Source of the DNA: Spirochaetota bacterium
GTDB taxonomy: Bacteria > Spirochaetota > UBA4802 > UBA5368
Assembly (NCBI GenBank): GCA_004297825.1
Contig: SCSX01000092.1
Location: 1 to 64,000 of the forward strand
Reading direction: 5' to 3'
Length of the DNA: 64,000 bases
The notes beneath the pieces were generated by a model, which was not told where the DNA came from, ran no database searches, and saw only the letters and a list, made by a program, of their open reading frames with translations. This document shows, one piece after another, positions 55,858 to 63,835 of the stretch. The position numbers and the translations under genes are program-made. The stretch's first letter is position 1. Every line of letters begins with the position of its first letter.

Positions 55858-55887
55858 TTGACGATGTTAAGTATTTTAGTATATTAT
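55858..55887 (+). promoter_or_regulatory. Promoter of the UGA-containing gene pair
   Basis: TTGACG (55858-55863), 18-base spacer, TATTAT (55882-55887), in a very AT-rich stretch 60 bases before the ATG at 55947. Confidence 0.5.
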
Positions 55888-55946: not shown

Positions 55947-56249
55947 ATGGCGATCAAGGTTACTGAAACGGCAAAGAACGAGCTTTCAAAGGTCATGGGT
56001 GAATCCGGATTGAAAAAGCCCGCACTGCGCATCGTGTTCGCGGGGGCCGGGTGAGGAGGGCCCCGTTTGGGGCTGGCTCTGGATGAGTCCGAAAACAGCA
56101 GCGATTTCAAGGTACACGACAACGGGATAGACATACTTCTCGACAGGGACATCAAGCGGTACGTGGAGACCGGTTCTCCAGTGACAGTGGATTTTAAGAC
56201 CAGCCCATACGGTTCGGGGTTTTTTATAAACAGCGGAAGCAATTGCTGA
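55947..56249 (+). CDS. HesB/IscA-like selenoprotein (in-frame UGA at codon 36)
   Basis: ATG at 55947 follows AAGGATGGG. The frame reads MAIKVTETAKNELSKVMGES, then KKPALRIVFAGAG, a TGA (56052-56054), and continues in the same frame GGPRLGLALDESENSSDFKV, DILLDRDIKRYVETGSPVTV, GSGFFINSGSNC to TGA 56247-56249. With Sec at codon 36 this is a 100-residue A-type (HesB-like) protein. The UGA replaces the first conserved Cys of GxGCGGPRL, the position used by the known HesB-like selenoprotein family. One Cys remains at the C-terminus. A hairpin with loop UGGAU lies 25 bases after the UGA. Likely an iron-sulfur or redox protein. Standard gene calling would truncate it. Confidence 0.8.
56075..56090 (+). 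promoter_or_regulatory. Candidate bacterial SECIS for HesB-like gene
   Basis: GGCTC-TGGAT-GAG(T)CC: 5-bp stem with one bulged T, loop T-G-G-A-T starting 25 bases after the UGA. A second, stronger hairpin (GCCCC-GTTT-GGGGC, 56060-56073) lies closer, but its loop is only 10 bases from the UGA, nearer than is usual for bacterial SECIS elements. Confidence 0.45.
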
Positions 56250-56268
56250 TGCGCTACGGGGGGAATCG

Positions 56269-56424
56269 ATGAAGTCTTACCTGTTTTTTTTCGCGGTCCT
56301 CGCGATATGGTTCGTGATGAACAAGTGGGTGCTTCCCAGGTTGGGAGTGCCCACGTGAATGTCGCCCCAGTGCTCCCTGGACCGGGAGCCCGGCAAAGAT
56401 GCTCAAAAAAACGGAACGCCCTAG
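56269..56424 (+). CDS. Candidate selenoprotein: small membrane protein with in-frame UGA
   Basis: ATG at 56269 follows GGGGGG; it starts 19 bases after the HesB-like stop. Read to the first TGA (56356-56358) it is 29 residues: one membrane helix (YLFFFAVLAIWFVMNKWVLP) and RLGVPT. Through the TGA the frame continues U-MSPQCSLDREPGKDAQKNG and ends at TAG 56422-56424, total 51 codons. The resulting PT-U-MSPQC resembles a Cys-x(n)-Cys tail that I associate with short membrane proteins of other anaerobes, from memory only. A clean hairpin begins 13 bases after the UGA. If UGA is a stop, this would be a 29-residue peptide. Confidence 0.55.
56372..56389 (+). promoter_or_regulatory. Candidate bacterial SECIS for small membrane protein
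   Basis: GCTCCC-TGGACC-GGGAGC: perfect 6-bp stem, loop starting 19 bases after the UGA with G at loop position 2. The loop shares UGGA with the candidate SECIS at 56075-56090. Confidence 0.5.
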
Positions 56425-56439
56425 TCGTTCCGTTTTTTT
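56405..56439 (+). terminator. Bidirectional-type Rho-independent terminator
   Basis: Fourteen-base-pair inverted repeat AAAAAAACGGAACG/CGTTCCGTTTTTTT with a 7-base loop that contains the TAG of the preceding frame. Confidence 0.9.
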
Positions 56440-56552: not shown

Positions 56553-57095
56553 ATGAAGAAAGCACTGATCGCCTGCACGCTTGCCGGGCTCATCCTGTCT
56601 TGTGGAGGCGGATACAACAGCAGCAGCGACAAGGGATTCACCATACAACCGGGGGATTTGACGCAGTTTACCCTTCAAAATAAATCACATTCAATAACAT
56701 TCGGCGGTACACCATACAATTGCGTTTCTGATCCGGGTTGCTATGCAATACTTTTCCAGGGTACGATTAATGGAACGCAGTACGTTGGCCTTGCAGTTCA
56801 GCGCGAAACACTGACCGAAATCTTCAATCTTAAGATTTACTATCCGGGATCGATACCAACAACTTTCCCTGATTCGAAGGACATTCAGGCAGATTCAAAT
56901 TCAGTTGTAAAAGTCGAACGAAAAAATATTTCTACCGGCGTGACCACAACTTACACCTATGATCATATTGCTGCGTTTACCATCAATTTTACCGCAGCTG
57001 CAACAAACAATGTATATCCGATTACCGCGACTGGCACTCCGAGCGTAGGCGGGTCTTCGCTTACCATTACAAGTATTGATGCACTAGGGATATAA
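56553..57095 (+). CDS. Putative lipoprotein of unknown function
   Basis: 180 residues from the ATG at 56553 (the longer frame crosses the terminator). Lipoprotein signal KKALIACTLAGLILSCGGGY. The mature part is low in charge and rich in Ser/Thr/Asn: FTIQPGDLTQFTLQNKSHSI, GGTPYNCVSDPGCYAILFQG, KNISTGVTTTYTYDHIAAFT, GTPSVGGSSLTITSIDALGI. This suggests an all-beta surface domain. Less GC-rich than its neighbours. Palindromes of the GAAGGCGCG family follow the stop. Confidence 0.6.
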   Translation: MKKALIACTLAGLILSCGGGYNSSSDKGFTIQPGDLTQFTLQNKSHSITFGGTPYNCVSDPGCYAILFQGTINGTQYVGLAVQRETLTEIFNLKIYYPGSIPTTFPDSKDIQADSNSVVKVERKNISTGVTTTYTYDHIAAFTINFTAAATNNVYPITATGTPSVGGSSLTITSIDALGI

Positions 57096-57377: not shown

Positions 57378-58451
57378 TCACTCCACCCCTTTTAAATACT
57401 CAATAATCCCCTGGATATTTCTCACCTCGTCCGCAGCGCCCAGCTTGATGGCCTCCTTGGGCATGCCGAAGACAATCGAGGACGCTTCGTCCTGGGCGAG
57501 CGTCACCGCGCCCGCCTCCTTCATCTCGAAGAGACCCGCGGCGCCGTCATTCCCCATGCCGGTCAGGATCACGCCCACCGCGTGCTCACCCGCCGTCTGC
57601 GAGACCGAACGGAAGAGCACGTCCACGGAGGGCCTATGGCGGTTCACCGGGGGACCGTCGTTGATCTCCACCCAGTAGCCGTTGGCGTCGTTCTGTAACA
57701 GCATGTGGAAATTGCCCGGCGCCACGAGGGCGGTGCCCCGGTATAGCCTGTCACGGTGCTCGGCCTCCTTGATAAAAAGCTTCGACATGCCGTTCACGCG
57801 ATCCGCGAACGCCTTCGTGAATTTCTCGGGCATGTGCTGGACCACGAGTATGCCCGGCATGTCCTCGGGGAGCGCACTCAGGATTTCCGCGATCACCTCG
57901 GTTCCGCCGGTGGAGGCGCCTATGGCGATAATGGTTTCGGTGCGCAGGCGCGATACGAGCGCCGCTTTTTTGGGGAGTATCACGTCCGCGGTGTATTTTA
58001 CAAGCGGATCGTCTGTATCGAGCGCGGGCGGGACTGCCTTGCGCTTGATTTTCGAGGCGCTCGCGCCCACCACTTTTTCGATAAGATCGTCGGCGAAGGC
58101 GTCCCACTTCGCGGTATCGTCTATCCTCGGCTTTAAAATGAAATCGACCGCCCCCGAGTGGAGCGCCTTCATCGTGGCGGTCGCCCCCGCGTCGGTGAAT
58201 GAGCTCACCATGATCACGGGCATGGGATGGGAGATCATAAGCTTCGAGAGAAAGGTGATCCCGTCCATGCGGGGCATCTCTATGTCGAGCGTCATGACGT
58301 CGGGGGCGAGGCTCTTGATCTTGTTCACCGCGATAAAGGGATCCATCGCGGTCCCTACCACCTCGATCTCCCTGGACTTCGATAGCGCATCGGTAAGAAG
58401 CTTCCTGGTCACCGCGGAATCGTCGACGATAAGCACTTTTATTTTTTTCAT
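57378..58451 (-). CDS. cheB: Chemotaxis methylesterase/deamidase CheB
   Basis: 357 residues. Receiver domain (~1-125): KKIKVLIVDDSAVTRKLLTD, phospho-Asp in MTLDIEMPRMDGITFLSKLM. Methylesterase domain (~165-355): catalytic Ser in IAIGASTGGTEVIAE, His in LVVQHMPEKFTKAFADRVN, Asp in LTGMGNDGAAGLFEMKEAG. It removes methyl groups from receptor glutamates. It is the last gene of the chemotaxis operon; its ATG overlaps the cheD stop (ATGA). Confidence 0.96.
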   Translation of the reverse strand: MKKIKVLIVDDSAVTRKLLTDALSKSREIEVVGTAMDPFIAVNKIKSLAPDVMTLDIEMPRMDGITFLSKLMISHPMPVIMVSSFTDAGATATMKALHSGAVDFILKPRIDDTAKWDAFADDLIEKVVGASASKIKRKAVPPALDTDDPLVKYTADVILPKKAALVSRLRTETIIAIGASTGGTEVIAEILSALPEDMPGILVVQHMPEKFTKAFADRVNGMSKLFIKEAEHRDRLYRGTALVAPGNFHMLLQNDANGYWVEINDGPPVNRHRPSVDVLFRSVSQTAGEHAVGVILTGMGNDGAAGLFEMKEAGAVTLAQDEASSIVFGMPKEAIKLGAADEVRNIQGIIEYLKGVE

Positions 58452-59008
58452 TTCTTTCCGATCAGTCTCCTCGCGTATTCTGTCTCCTCCTGCAGCGCCT
58501 CTTCGAATACGTCGCCGCGTGTGGACCTTTTCAGGTAGACCTTCCCGGTTTTCACGTCCATGAGAAGCTTTCGGGTGAAATTCGAGCCCACATCCTGTTC
58601 CGCTATCTGGATATCCTCCATCTCCATCATTACCTTCGCGATGCGGATATTGTCCGCGGGAATGGTCGTGCTCCGGAGAACGTTGTTCAGCACCTCCCCG
58701 CCACCGAATATTTTTGCGACGAGGTTGTCCCTCTTCGCCCCGAGCGCGGCCATCTCCCCGAGAAGCTCGTTGATCGCGGTGATGCCGTATTTCGCCGTAC
58801 GGTCCTTTTGTATGTCCATGTGGGTGATCCTTCCCGGGAGCATGAAATGATTCATTCCCGAAATGCCCTTCACGGGATCGTACAGGCAGACGGCGACGCA
58901 GGATCCCAGCAGGGTGCCTATGATCTCGTCCTTGTCCGAGGCGTAGAGCTCACCCGGATTGATTATCTTCATCTGTTTGCCGAATTTTGAACTGTTACGT
59001 ACGTACAT
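58448..59008 (-). CDS. cheD: Chemoreceptor glutamine deamidase CheD
   Basis: 186 residues. Catalytic residues in place: Cys37 in GTLLGSCVAVCLYD, His54 in GISGMNHFMLPGR. KRDNLVAKIFGGGEVL and a C-terminal GKVYLKRS complete the family pattern. It deamidates receptor glutamines and in some bacteria is controlled by CheC (none seen here). The N-terminal 14 codons overlap the end of cheR. A second cheD-like gene two genes upstream lacks the Cys. Confidence 0.94.
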   Translation of the reverse strand: MYVRNSSKFGKQMKIINPGELYASDKDEIIGTLLGSCVAVCLYDPVKGISGMNHFMLPGRITHMDIQKDRTAKYGITAINELLGEMAALGAKRDNLVAKIFGGGEVLNNVLRSTTIPADNIRIAKVMMEMEDIQIAEQDVGSNFTRKLLMDVKTGKVYLKRSTRGDVFEEALQEETEYARRLIGKK

Positions 59009-59867
59009 CGCTCCGCTCCCTTCCGGTTACCTGCGTCTTTCTGTATATCGTGCTTTTTATGAATGTGAATTTATCGGTCACCCCGGCCAGCGTCTCCGAG
59101 TGTCCCACGAAGAGATAGCCGTCGTCGGCGACGTACCGGTGGAACCTGTCGAAAAGCGTCCGCTGGGTGTCCTTGTCGAAATATATGATGACGTTGCGGC
59201 AAAAGATCGCGTCGAAAGGGCCGCTCATGGGATAGTGCTCCTCCAGGAGGTTAAGCTTCCTGAAGCGGACGAGCGACTTCACCTCGTCCCTTACCCTGTA
59301 CTTTCCTTCGTTGACTCCCGTGCCGCGCAGGAAATAACGGCGAGCGGTTTCCCTCTCTACCGTTTCGAGGATGGACTCCTTGTACACGCCCTTTTCCGCG
59401 ACGCCGAGTACGGCCGTGTCGATATCCGTCGCCAGGATCTTGATGTCCTCCTGGGGGACGCCCCCGAAGAAATCCAGCACGCAGATGGCGATGGTGTAAG
59501 GCTCCTCCCCCGTAGAGCATCCCGCGCTCCAGATGCGCATCTTCTTTTTCCCCGAGGCCCTGAATTGCGGGAACACGACCTCGCGCAGAAAATCGAAATG
59601 CTTGGATTCCCGGAAAAAGTCGGTTTTATTGGTGGTGATGCAATTGATCAGGTTGACGATTTCCGCGTCGTAATTCTCCTGGAGATAGTCGTAATACTCC
59701 CCGTAATCACTCAGCCGGAGCTCGCGCAGCCGCATCATGAGCCTCGCCTGCACGAGCGCCTTCTTCATCTCGGAAAGCTTGATGCGGCTCTCCTCGTATA
59801 TGATGTCCCGGAATTTCGCGAAGTCCCTGTCGCCCAGCTCCCGGATGGTAAAGGCCCCATTGGTCAT
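58995..59867 (-). CDS. cheR: Chemotaxis protein methyltransferase CheR
   Basis: 290 residues. N-terminal helical domain (FAKFRDIIYEESRIKLSEMK, NLINCITTNKTDFFRESKHF). SAM-binding domain: KKMRIWSAGCSTGEEPYTIA (motif I), IKILATDIDTAVLGVAEKGV, FDAIFCRNVIIYFDKDTQRT, GYLFVGHSETLAGV. It methylates receptor glutamates. The MCP whose end lies at 63.9 kb ends in GFEEF, a possible CheR-binding tail. Confidence 0.96.
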   Translation of the reverse strand: MTNGAFTIRELGDRDFAKFRDIIYEESRIKLSEMKKALVQARLMMRLRELRLSDYGEYYDYLQENYDAEIVNLINCITTNKTDFFRESKHFDFLREVVFPQFRASGKKKMRIWSAGCSTGEEPYTIAICVLDFFGGVPQEDIKILATDIDTAVLGVAEKGVYKESILETVERETARRYFLRGTGVNEGKYRVRDEVKSLVRFRKLNLLEEHYPMSGPFDAIFCRNVIIYFDKDTQRTLFDRFHRYVADDGYLFVGHSETLAGVTDKFTFIKSTIYRKTQVTGRERSDVRT

Positions 59868-59873
59868 CTTACC

Positions 59874-60464
59874 TCACTCGAACAGGTAAACTTTTCCGTA
59901 GCGGACCTTATCCCTGAACGTGGTATCAATATATTCCTGTTCAAGCTTGAGAAATTCGGAGGAGTCCTCGTTACGGCGCTGGAAACGCCTGTAGGCCTGG
60001 CCCGTGGTGGGGAAAAAATACACCTTCCTTCTCTCCTGGCCGCCCAGGTCCTCCCCGTTCACCTGTATCTTCTCCAGGGTGAAGTATTCCTTGAGAAACC
60101 TGATGTTGCTCTGGATGATCGACTCCTTCTGGGGGAGCCGCGCGAAGGTGCTTCCGGCGCCGAAAAGCTTGGCCTTCAGATATTTCCTGTCCCCCCCCAG
60201 CTTCACGATCTCGCCCATGAGGTATTCCATGCTGAGAATCCCGTGCGCGGCGATCTGGTCCTCGACGATGCCCTCGGTGCCGATCATCCCCGGCACGATG
60301 AAATGACCCATGCCGCCGATACGCCGTGCGTCGTCGTACAGGCACACGCTTACCGTCGCCCCGGTAACCGTGCCCAGGACGCATTCCTCTTTCGTTGCAA
60401 AATAGTCGCCCGGGTAAAGGATGCACATGGGTTTGCCGAACCTGCTTGTTCCCGTGCGTATCAT
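59874..60464 (-). CDS. CheD-like paralogue lacking catalytic cysteine
   Basis: 196 residues. Aligns with CheD from residue 1: GTVTGATVSVCLYDDARRIG then GMGHFIVPGMIGTEGI; LKAKLFGAGSTF and a late GEDLGGQERRKVYFFPTTG. The catalytic Cys37 of the neighbouring CheD is Thr37 here (GSC to GAT), while His54 and the second Cys41 remain. Deamidase activity is therefore doubtful; a binding or regulatory role, for example at CheD's partner site, is more likely. The C-terminus is ~30 residues longer (EEYIDTTFRDKVRYGKVY-like). It sits between cheW and cheR. Confidence 0.85.
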   Translation of the reverse strand: MIRTGTSRFGKPMCILYPGDYFATKEECVLGTVTGATVSVCLYDDARRIGGMGHFIVPGMIGTEGIVEDQIAAHGILSMEYLMGEIVKLGGDRKYLKAKLFGAGSTFARLPQKESIIQSNIRFLKEYFTLEKIQVNGEDLGGQERRKVYFFPTTGQAYRRFQRRNEDSSEFLKLEQEYIDTTFRDKVRYGKVYLFE

Positions 60465-60477
60465 CCGCGCGCCCCGG

Positions 60478-61026
60478 CTACGATGATCTCTCCCGGTCCA
60501 TCTCGCTTATTTCCTGGGTGGAGAGAATCCGGTCCACGTCCAGGATGATAACAAGCTTGTCCTCCACCTGGCCGATCCCGCTGATAAAGTCGGTCTCGAT
60601 ATGCGCGCTGAAGTGCGGCGTGTCCTGAATGCCTTTCACCGGGATACCCACCACGTCCGATACGCTGTCCACGATCATGCCGATCATGCGTTCGCGCACC
60701 TCGACGATGATGATGACCGTGAACGCGTCGTAATCGCGTTCCTCCATCGCGAACTTGATGCGCATGTCCACGACGGGCACCACCGAGCCGCGCAGGTTGA
60801 TCACCCCTTTCATGAAAACCATCGTATTGGGAACATGGGTGATCTGCGTCATGCCTATGATCTCCTGGACCTTGAGCACCTCGACGCCGTACGTCTCCCC
60901 GCCAATCATGAAGGTCACGAACTGGTTTTCTTCCTCGGTCTTTTCTACCCGCGCGGACTGCGCGAGCGAACGGTACGATTTTTCGGCCTTGTGTTCCTGG
61001 GGATCGAGCTGTTCGAATTCTCCCAT
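60478..61026 (-). CDS. cheW: Chemotaxis coupling protein CheW
   Basis: 182 residues; the CheW domain starts QFVTFMIGGETYGVEVLKVQ, then EIIGMTQITHVPNTMVFMKG, VINLRGSVVPVVDMRIKFAM, VRERMIGMIVDSVSDVVGIP and ISGIGQVEDKLVIILDVDRI. The ~30-residue N-terminal tail (EQLDPQEHKAEKSYRSLAQS) is extra. It links CheA to receptors in the cytoplasmic array. Confidence 0.95.
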   Translation of the reverse strand: MGEFEQLDPQEHKAEKSYRSLAQSARVEKTEEENQFVTFMIGGETYGVEVLKVQEIIGMTQITHVPNTMVFMKGVINLRGSVVPVVDMRIKFAMEERDYDAFTVIIIVEVRERMIGMIVDSVSDVVGIPVKGIQDTPHFSAHIETDFISGIGQVEDKLVIILDVDRILSTQEISEMDRERSS

Positions 61027-61036
61027 ATGCGCCTCC

Positions 61037-61408
61037 CTACCGTATAAATTTCTCGACGACGCCCAGGAGCTCCGATGGCTGGAACGGTTTCACGAGCCAT
61101 CCCGAGGCTCCGGCTTCTTTGCCGGCCTTGATCTTGTCCTGCTCCGATTCGGTGGTGAGCACGAGCACGGGCGTGAACTTGTCGATTTTCCTGAATTCCC
61201 TTATGAACGTGATGCCGTCCATCACCGGCATGTTGACGTCGCAGATGCACAGCGCGGTCTCGTCTCCCGCGGCCTTGAACTCCCTGATCTTCTGCAGGGC
61301 GTCCTGGCCATTCTCGGCGTGCTTGATGGGAACGCTCACCTTCTTGAGCGCATACTCAACGCTGATGCGAATTGTGGGCGAATCGTCGATTACGAGTATG
61401 TACTTCAT
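61037..61408 (-). CDS. cheY: Chemotaxis response regulator CheY
   Basis: 123 residues, a single receiver domain: MKYILVIDDSPTIRISVEYA, phospho-Asp in LCICDVNMPVMDGITFIRE, Thr in PVLVLTTESEQDKIKAGKEA, Lys in GWLVKPFQP. Phosphorylated by CheA; acts on the flagellar switch or as a phosphate sink. Starts after the STAS gene and ends 10 bases before cheW. Confidence 0.94.
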   Translation of the reverse strand: MKYILVIDDSPTIRISVEYALKKVSVPIKHAENGQDALQKIREFKAAGDETALCICDVNMPVMDGITFIREFRKIDKFTPVLVLTTESEQDKIKAGKEAGASGWLVKPFQPSELLGVVEKFIR

Positions 61409-61457
61409 GTTTCCTCCGGCTCATGCGTGTAAATCGGCAGATCCCCTGCCTCGTATC

Positions 61458-61709
61458 CTATCTCAAACCGCACAGCTGAAGCTGTGCCCTGACCTCTTCG
61501 TTGGCGCCCCTCATCCTGACCGCCAGGGATCGCTCCCGCGCCTCCCGCGCACCCGCCAGGATCACCTGGATCGAAGCGAGGTCGAGCCTGCGTACCGCGG
61601 AAAAATCCAGGATGATCTCCTCGTTCCCGTCGATGATATCCCTCCACGATGCGTGGAGCTCCCTGATCTTCTTTATGCCCGTATCTTCGGCAAGCCTGAA
61701 CGTTCCCAT
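61458..61709 (-). CDS. STAS-domain protein
   Basis: 83 residues from the ATG at 61709 (the frame runs further back but overlaps cheA). GNEEIILDFSAVRRLDLASI followed by VILAGAREARERSLAVRMRG is the STAS pattern. The position of the usual phospho-Ser (D-x-S-x-x-x-x-D-S) is occupied by Ala (LDLAS) with a Ser one residue on. Anti-anti-sigma-like proteins are embedded in chemotaxis operons of several phyla; the binding partner is unknown. 17 bases after cheA. Confidence 0.8.
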   Translation of the reverse strand: MGTFRLAEDTGIKKIRELHASWRDIIDGNEEIILDFSAVRRLDLASIQVILAGAREARERSLAVRMRGANEEVRAQLQLCGLR

Positions 61710-61726
61710 TGCGTGTCCCCTGCCCC

Positions 61727-63835
61727 CTATCTCGAAAGCTCTTCGACGAGCCCGTGCACGTCGATTATGAGCGCGACGCGCCCGTCGCCCAATATGGCGG
61801 CCCCGGAAAGCGCGCGGCTGCGGCTGATATAATTCTCCAGGCTCTTGATTACTATCTGCTGCTGGCCAAGGAGCTCGTCTATCATGATGCCCACGCGTGA
61901 AATACCCGCCTCCACGATCACCATGAGCGATTCCCACGGGTTCTGGAATTCGGACTTGATCCCGAACAGGTCATACAGGCGCACCAGCGTCACGAACTCG
62001 CCCCGCACGTGCACCACCTCGCCCTTTTCCTTCACCGTGCTGATGTCCTCCCTGCGCGGCTGCATGGACTCGACGATGGACAGGAGCGGGATTATGTAGA
62101 TGCTCCCGCCCACCCGCACCAGCATGCCCTCGATTATCGCCAGGGTAAGCGGGAGCTTGACCCGGAACATGGTCCCCTCCCCGGCGCGCGTTTCGATCTC
62201 CACACTTCCGCGTAGTGACTCGATATTGGTCTTTACCACATCCATGCCCACGCCCCGCCCGGAGAGCTCCCCCACCCGCGCGGCGGTCGAGAACCCGGGC
62301 ATGAACAGGATGGAAAGCAGCCGCGCATCGTTCACCTCGTCGCCGGGTTTTATGATTCCCATAGACTCCGCCTTTTCGCGGAGCCTTTTCCGGTTCACGC
62401 CGGCCCCGTCGTCGGAGACCTCGATGAAGACGTTCCCCTCCTGGTGGTAGGCGCGCAGCATGATCCTCCCTATGGGCTCCTTGCCGGCCTGCCCGCGCTC
62501 TTCCGGCGTTTCGATGCCGTGATCGATCGCGTTGCGTATCATGTGCTTGAGCGGATCGCCTATCTTCTCGATCACCGTCTTGTCGAGCTCGGTCTCCGCG
62601 CCCTCGATCTCGAGGCGGATGTCCTTGCCCAGGGCGTGGGCGGAATCGCGCACGAATCTCCTGAACTGCTCGAACGAGGGTCCCACGGGGATCATGCGGA
62701 TCGCCATGATCTGCTCCTGGAACTCGCGCGTTACGCGATCGAGCCCATAGAGCGCGTTTTTCAGCCTGAAGCCCTTTTCTTCGTCAAGCTCGTCGGCGAT
62801 CCTGTTTATCCCCGACTGGCCGATGACGATTTCGCCCAGGAGATTCAGCAGGGTGTCCAGCTTCCCGGTATCCACCCGCACCGTGCTCGTCTCCACCTTC
62901 TTCTTGATCTTCTCCTGCTCCGTGAGCGCGAACTGGAGGTCCTTGTCGGTCGCGTATCCCTTCTCGACGACGAGCGTTCCTATCTTTTTGTTCTCGAGCT
63001 CCTGCGAGATGAGCACGTCGGTAAGCTCGTTCTCGGTAAGTATGCCCTTTTCGGTGAGGATCTCCCCCAGCATCCGTTCTTCCTGGGTCCCCCTGCCTCC
63101 CGCGCCGCTCGTGTACAGCGCGGTGATGTCCTCGACGGAGATATCGTTGTCGTCCCTGACGAAGAGAAAGACGTCGTCGACCTTCTGCTGGGGATGCTTG
63201 GTTTTCAGCACCAGGTCCCAGGCTAGGTAGCATTTTTCCGGGTCCATGTCCTCCAGCAGGGGCAGTCTCGACCGGTCGATTTTCCGTTCGACGAATTTCC
63301 CGAGCGCGGCAAGGTCCTCCATTATCAGGAGCGGGTCGATCCCGCTTTCGAACACGTCTTCACGGAACGCCGCATGCACGCGGAAGTATCGGAACCCCAC
63401 CTCGATCTCGCGCTCGGGCTCCGGGATGTCCGCCTTTTCGGGAGCGGCATCGGGGGCCGATTCGCCCACGCCCAGGAGCGCATCGGTTTTACTAATGAGC
63501 GCCCGGCGCGACTCCTCCGGCGCGGCGTCGTCCCCCGCGATGGCCTCCCGCACCCAGTCAAGGCTTCCCAGCAGCAGGTCGATGAGCTCCGGGCTCACCG
63601 CGACCCCCCCCGAGCGGACCTTGTCGAGGACACTTTCCACCTTGTGGGTGAACTCGTACACGTTCTTGAAACCCGCGATCCCCGAGCTGCCCTTGAGCGT
63701 GTGGAAATAGCGAAACAGCCGGTGCACCACCTCCGGGTCGGACCCCTCCTCGAGCACGATGAGGTCCGACTCCAGGTGGTCGAGAATCTCCCGCGATTCC
63801 TTTAAGAAGACGTCCCTGATCCCTGTATCTTCCAT
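61727..63835 (-). CDS. cheA: Chemotaxis histidine kinase CheA with MshEN-like insert
   Basis: 702 residues. HPt domain: FRYFHTLKGSSGIAGFKNVY (His45). Residues ~145-245 form a P2-like linker domain (EVGFRYFRVHAAFREDVFES). Residues 255-307 hold two 24-residue repeats five residues apart: MLGEILTEKGILTENELTDV..Q and KIGTLVVEKGYATDKDLQFA..Q, the MshEN pattern of c-di-GMP-binding domains. Dimerisation (~316-380), HATPase (HMIRNAIDHGIETPEERGQA; SDDGAGVN; SGRGVGMDVVKTNIESLRGS) and CheW-like regulatory domain (TLAIIEGMLVRVGGSIYIIP) follow. The core kinase is intact. Confidence 0.95.
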   Translation of the reverse strand: MEDTGIRDVFLKESREILDHLESDLIVLEEGSDPEVVHRLFRYFHTLKGSSGIAGFKNVYEFTHKVESVLDKVRSGGVAVSPELIDLLLGSLDWVREAIAGDDAAPEESRRALISKTDALLGVGESAPDAAPEKADIPEPEREIEVGFRYFRVHAAFREDVFESGIDPLLIMEDLAALGKFVERKIDRSRLPLLEDMDPEKCYLAWDLVLKTKHPQQKVDDVFLFVRDDNDISVEDITALYTSGAGGRGTQEERMLGEILTEKGILTENELTDVLISQELENKKIGTLVVEKGYATDKDLQFALTEQEKIKKKVETSTVRVDTGKLDTLLNLLGEIVIGQSGINRIADELDEEKGFRLKNALYGLDRVTREFQEQIMAIRMIPVGPSFEQFRRFVRDSAHALGKDIRLEIEGAETELDKTVIEKIGDPLKHMIRNAIDHGIETPEERGQAGKEPIGRIMLRAYHQEGNVFIEVSDDGAGVNRKRLREKAESMGIIKPGDEVNDARLLSILFMPGFSTAARVGELSGRGVGMDVVKTNIESLRGSVEIETRAGEGTMFRVKLPLTLAIIEGMLVRVGGSIYIIPLLSIVESMQPRREDISTVKEKGEVVHVRGEFVTLVRLYDLFGIKSEFQNPWESLMVIVEAGISRVGIMIDELLGQQQIVIKSLENYISRSRALSGAAILGDGRVALIIDVHGLVEELSR

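Follow-up and report, generated by a model that had tools for sequence, protein, structure and literature searches.

HesB-like selenoproteins (NF038090, TIGR01911) are A-type proteins with Sec in GxGUGGP at a ligand Cys and a bSECIS behind the UGA. They are already catalogued in PMC13188914 and PMC1794560. The gene designated here hesB-Se shares these features, but differs from them in its sub-cut-off scores and in having a second, unrelated selenoprotein gene behind it. It matches the A-type carriers IscA, SufA and ErpA (PF01521) over its whole length and keeps their C-terminal Cys, whereas Sec stands in place of the first Cys. The second gene is called PTUM here. Different selenoprotein genes likewise lie side by side in the Tso and Sao operons, although the motifs of TsoA (LULAxC), TsoC, TsoX and Sao, as listed in PMC13188914, differ from the PTUM segment GVxTUMSxxC.

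We read nt 55947–56424 (forward strand) of the window, which is the whole 64,000-nucleotide stretch analyzed, as a two-gene spirochaete selenoprotein unit with one internal UGA per gene decoded as Sec. From sequence comparison, the probability of this reading is put at roughly 0.95. A bSECIS just behind the internal UGA of each gene would direct SelB and tRNA-Sec to insert Sec there, and the UGA that ends hesB-Se, which lacks such a hairpin, would act as a stop. HesB-Se would serve as an A-type Fe-S carrier whose first cluster-ligand Cys is replaced by Sec36. PTUM would be a small inner-membrane protein with one helix followed by the GVxTUMSxxC segment. The preliminary description had delimited nt 55947–56249. 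This interval does hold a real selenoprotein gene, but only the first of two; the second, at nt 56269–56424, was missed.

Gene hesB-Se (nt 55947–56249, +) encodes a 100-residue A-type (IscA/HesB) protein. Its read-through translation is MAIKVTETAKNELSKVMGESGLKKPALRIVFAGAG-U-GGPRLGLALDESENSSDFKVHDNGIDILLDRDIKRYVETGSPVTVDFKTSPYGSGFFINSGSNC, with Sec36 at the in-frame UGA of nt 56052–56054 and Cys100 as the last residue. The frame had been said to keep A-type/HesB similarity through this codon, and the family matches agree. The read-through product matches PF01521 over residues 1–96 with 28.5 bits, above the Pfam cut-off of 26.3, and the best NCBIfam match, NF038090 (IscA_HesB_Se, 2.4e-16), takes both flanks of the UGA into one alignment. 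With Cys written for Sec, the NF038090 score is 59.9 bits, 25 bits short of the cut-off of 85, and the TIGR01911 (HesB_rel_seleno) score is 32.7 bits against a cut-off of 66.35. Since both scores lie under the curated cut-offs, hesB-Se is on this measure a divergent relative and not a member of the HesB-Se models as curated. The earlier assignment to the HesB-like Sec family is upheld by the A-type match, the Sec at the ligand Cys and the bSECIS, and falls short at both curated models. Taken by these features, hesB-Se is a new, divergent member of the known HesB-like family. A weak possible promoter, TTGACG-16-TATATT, lies upstream at nt 55858–55885 (+); two sites were found versus a shuffle mean of 0.8.

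The internal UGA was claimed to stand at a conserved Cys. In the profile alignment its column coincides with the conserved ligand Cys of the solved IscA-family proteins AQ_1857 and HI1723. The profile search of the PDB gave these true IscA-family matches; the polyubiquitin chains that topped a single-sequence phmmer search are an artefact, their score being summed over nine repeats. A search of 148 genomes for A-type genes gave a match in 36, from which 30 loci of one order, the window's included, were retrieved. The UGA column holds TGA in 29 of the 30 and Cys in the remaining one (genome G016, 94% complete), in which selA was not found. Compared with its nearest relative, hesB-Se shows 18 synonymous codon changes to 7 replacements before the UGA, and 20 to 9 after it. 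The changes past the UGA are still mostly synonymous, indicating that selection on hesB-Se persists 3′ of this codon. Many relatives end at, or within one or two residues of, nt 56247–56249 with TAA, TAG or TGA, and no stable hairpin was found 3′ of the final TGA of hesB-Se. This TGA therefore looks like an ordinary stop.

A single PF01521 match, hesB-Se itself, is found in the window genome, which is 95% complete. That the sole A-type Fe-S carrier found there is a selenoprotein would make Fe-S maturation depend in part on the supply of selenium.

Gene PTUM (nt 56269–56424, +) begins 19 bases after the hesB-Se stop. Its translation, MKSYLFFFAVLAIWFVMNKWVLPRLGVPT-U-MSPQCSLDREPGKDAQKNGTP, is a predicted single-pass membrane selenoprotein of 51 residues, with Sec30 at the in-frame UGA of nt 56356–56358 and Cys35; the Sec motif in the window is GVPT-U-MSPQC. 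When the 148 genomes were searched reading through stops, all 27 aligned members of the order had the UGA in the same position, and the Cys five residues later was present in 24 of the 27. A conserved UGA, Cys homologues, a SECIS and the selenium machinery, by which a bacterial selenoprotein is recognized, are all present for PTUM. The AlphaFold model shows a single helix at residues 2–24 (pLDDT about 85), the tail being loose. Lys and Arg number 3.8 per sequence behind the helix versus 0.3 before it in the family, the two stretches differing in length, and by the positive-inside rule the UMSxxC segment is predicted on the cytoplasmic side. The Ux4C segment borne on one helix is neither UxxC nor CxxU, nor does the protein have a thioredoxin fold. 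A terminator-like inverted repeat with a T run, read from the sequence at nt 56405–56439 (+), holds the PTUM stop codon in its loop of 9 bases; it was absent from a scan limited to loops of at most 8 bases. A lipoprotein-like ORF (MKKALIACTLAGLILSCGGG...) lies downstream at nt 56553–57095 (+), and relatives of it stand behind PTUM in several genomes of the order.

The two genes of nt 55947–56424 may be co-transcribed as one unit. In 15 members of the order hesB-Se directly precedes PTUM on the same strand, and the two are found close together, with their order and orientation kept, in genomes from at least five of the order's families. In this order PTUM could be a source of reducing equivalents or sulphur for the Fe-S carrier HesB-Se. 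This functional link is given less credence than the thiol/persulfide role of PTUM considered below. The adjacency might instead reflect inherited gene order only, without joint function, to which we allow a substantial chance, short of even. PTUM was not found near hesB in other phyla, and in many genomes of one family of the order (f7) the two genes are apart. A lon-type gene is also kept upstream of the pair in several members, and the lipoprotein-like gene downstream. These observations favor mere inheritance, while the closeness and constant arrangement of the pair across at least five families speak against it.

When the PTUM pattern, with the key codon restricted to TGA, TGC and TGT, was scanned against the genomes of 84,980 bacterial and archaeal species, it was found in at least 118 places. 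Among the matches listed, 108 have TGA, 6 TGC and 4 TGT, giving 10 Cys forms, and about a dozen phyla are spanned. The carriers among the matches listed are Desulfobacterota and related deltaproteobacteria, Planctomycetota, Acidobacteriota, Verrucomicrobiota, Obscuribacterales/Melainabacteria, Gemmatimonadota, Zixibacteria, KSB1, LCP-89, Armatimonadota, Rokubacteria and Spirochaetota; the isolates Pelovirga terrestris, Desulfospira joergensenii and Desulfacinum hydrothermale are among them. At positions not fixed by the pattern, the same matches listed show Trp/Tyr at −16 in 117 of 118, Leu at −13 in 105, Asn/Gln/Met at −12 in 111, Ser at +2 in 88 and Ser/Ala/Thr at +4 in 98. Plasmids gave no PTUM match. 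One of the 118 matches listed, in Aeromonas sp. RU39B (L182), without the usual long hydrophobic stretch and with a second UGA, is probably due to chance.

Pfam and NCBIfam gave no match for 37 PTUM members. The motif has no entry in the 119-family selenoprotein table of 2026 (PMC13188914), and the selenoprotein-operon section of that review holds no operon of the hesB-Se/PTUM type. The accessible text of the deep-Sep paper (PMC12013277) does not mention PTUM, and a literature search by the motif letters returned, among the papers listed, only chance word matches such as 'septums'. Judged from Pfam, NCBIfam and the 119-family table, a narrower base than all NCBI proteins, PTUM is probably an undescribed family. 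It is carried on more than 100 genome contigs of several phyla, yet seemingly absent from the selenoprotein catalogues checked. It probably escaped them because its product has only about 50–60 residues and is cut off at the UGA by gene callers. Cys forms are few (10 of 118 among the matches listed), so that a search begun with annotated Cys homologues would be prone to overlook the family.

In several phyla PTUM is found in the surroundings of CcdA/DsbD-thioredoxin relays and sulfide-detoxification islands (SQR, persulfide dioxygenase, rhodanese, TauE). To our knowledge, no small single-pass selenoprotein has been described in either setting. The 93 same-strand adjacent genes of PTUM in other genomes include thioredoxin (5), rhodanese (4), metallo-beta-lactamase (4), DUF302 (4), TauE (3), DsbD (2), ArsR (2) and histidine kinases (6, from one group of relatives). 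No family in this list occurs more than once among 93 distant control genes of the same loci, a control that covers the 25 commonest families and in which single members could be hidden. Sequence inspection, rather than family search, places persulfide dioxygenase/rhodanese-type proteins in about 12 PTUM loci and SQR-like flavoproteins in 5. The open frame of PTUM runs on into thioredoxin in L085 and L184 and into an SQR-like protein in L136; these could be fusions, or adjacent genes with no intervening stop. The neighbors are varied, and the thiol/sulphur genes are a minority of them.

The thioredoxin, CcdA, rhodanese and TauE neighbors suggest, though they do not prove, thiol/persulfide chemistry for PTUM. 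The protein could act as a selenol anchored in the membrane, its partners in the exchange of electrons or sulfane sulphur being thioredoxin, CcdA or rhodanese-type proteins. To judge from sequence, this role is nearly an even bet. A role of Sec in metal or metalloid binding, in a PTUM that is still a selenoprotein, is a good deal less likely: some members have ArsR-family regulators and efflux-type genes nearby and the motif is neither of the two redox types named above, but thioredoxin, rhodanese, TauE and CcdA are commoner beside PTUM, and thioredoxin twice continues in its frame. The full proposal takes PTUM as an undescribed, phylum-crossing selenoprotein family with a cytoplasmic-face selenol that partners thioredoxin/CcdA or persulfide enzymes and, in one spirochaete order, is coupled with a selenoprotein Fe-S carrier. 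It is tentative, and somewhat less probable than the thiol/persulfide role by itself.

An ECF sigma factor-like gene lies shortly behind PTUM in four loci (L154, L155, L176 and L180), with thioredoxin separating the two in L154 and L155. In L154, L155 and L176 the ECF-like gene is in turn followed by a small zinc-finger-like protein. These genes hint at stress-regulated expression.

The SECIS candidate first marked at nt 56075–56090 proved to lie inside a larger hairpin, nt 56073–56091 (+), with a 7-pair stem and the loop UGGAU at nt 56080–56084. In 18 aligned members of the order 96.8% of the cells are paired and 4 of the 7 pairs have changed on both sides, versus 15–43% paired at slid control positions of the alignment. 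For example, GTT-CTG-GAT-GAA replaces GCT-CTG-GAT-GAG, where an Ala to Val change alters one base of a pair and the base opposite changes with it through the synonymous step from GAG to GAA. A SECIS-like hairpin is observed in 79% of the hesB-Se genes (n=29) versus 30% of synonymous-codon shuffles. By these comparisons, the hesB-Se SECIS is conserved and covarying.

The PTUM SECIS, GCUCCC-UGGACC-GGGAGC, lies at nt 56372–56389 (+) with its loop at nt 56378–56383. In UGA forms of PTUM (n=133) a bSECIS-like hairpin is present in 91% versus 37% of synonymous shuffles, whereas Cys forms (n=10) show no excess, with 30% versus 29%. The loops vary by lineage (GGUC, GUC, GGA, UGGAU), and the alignment mixes loops of 5 and 6 bases. 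The Rfam scan of the 64-kb window at gathering thresholds gave no match. The comparative evidence shows that both UGAs are recoded and that both SECIS elements are real.

The window genome (4.89 Mb, 96 contigs) holds the Sec-decoding set selA, selB, selC and selD. Genes selB, selA and tRNA-Sec adjoin one another on contig C37; selD is on C25. The preliminary description would have fallen with a genome lacking selA, selB or tRNA-Sec, or with homologues bearing another residue at the UGA position; the machinery is present, and the homologues have only Cys or Sec in that column. In the order, 32 genomes have hesB or PTUM in a UGA form, and selA is found in 31 of them versus 7 of the 14 without such a form (Fisher p = 4e-4, a value that is only indicative, the genomes of one order not being independent). 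The exception, G043, has UGA forms and no selA was found in it; this genome is only 81% complete.

That the UGAs are true stops, leaving a hesB pseudogene and a 29-residue PTUM peptide, is very improbable: a plain table-11 reading does end at them and HesB-Se does score under both curated cut-offs, but the UGA is kept at the same codon in 29/30 hesB and 27/27 PTUM loci, Cys is the only alternative residue in these sets (the public PTUM scan admitted only TGA, TGC and TGT), and the selection past the hesB UGA, the SECIS elements and the Sec machinery all oppose it.

Gene selD of the window genome itself has an in-frame UGA (SVKGAGUASKIG; locus base 1531 of L197, G000:C25) with a strong GGA-loop hairpin behind, and is a selenoprotein gene. 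The loop core GGA is common to the hesB-Se, PTUM and selD hairpins of this genome, as one would expect of hairpins read by a single SelB. Further along the window, a chemotaxis-like cluster at nt 57378–63835 contains CheB-, CheW-, CheY- and CheA-like ORFs, named by eye from their translations. Two ORFs resembling CheD (chemoreceptor deamidase) paralogues, at nt 58448–59008 (−) and 59874–60464 (−) and also named by eye, flank a CheR-like ORF.
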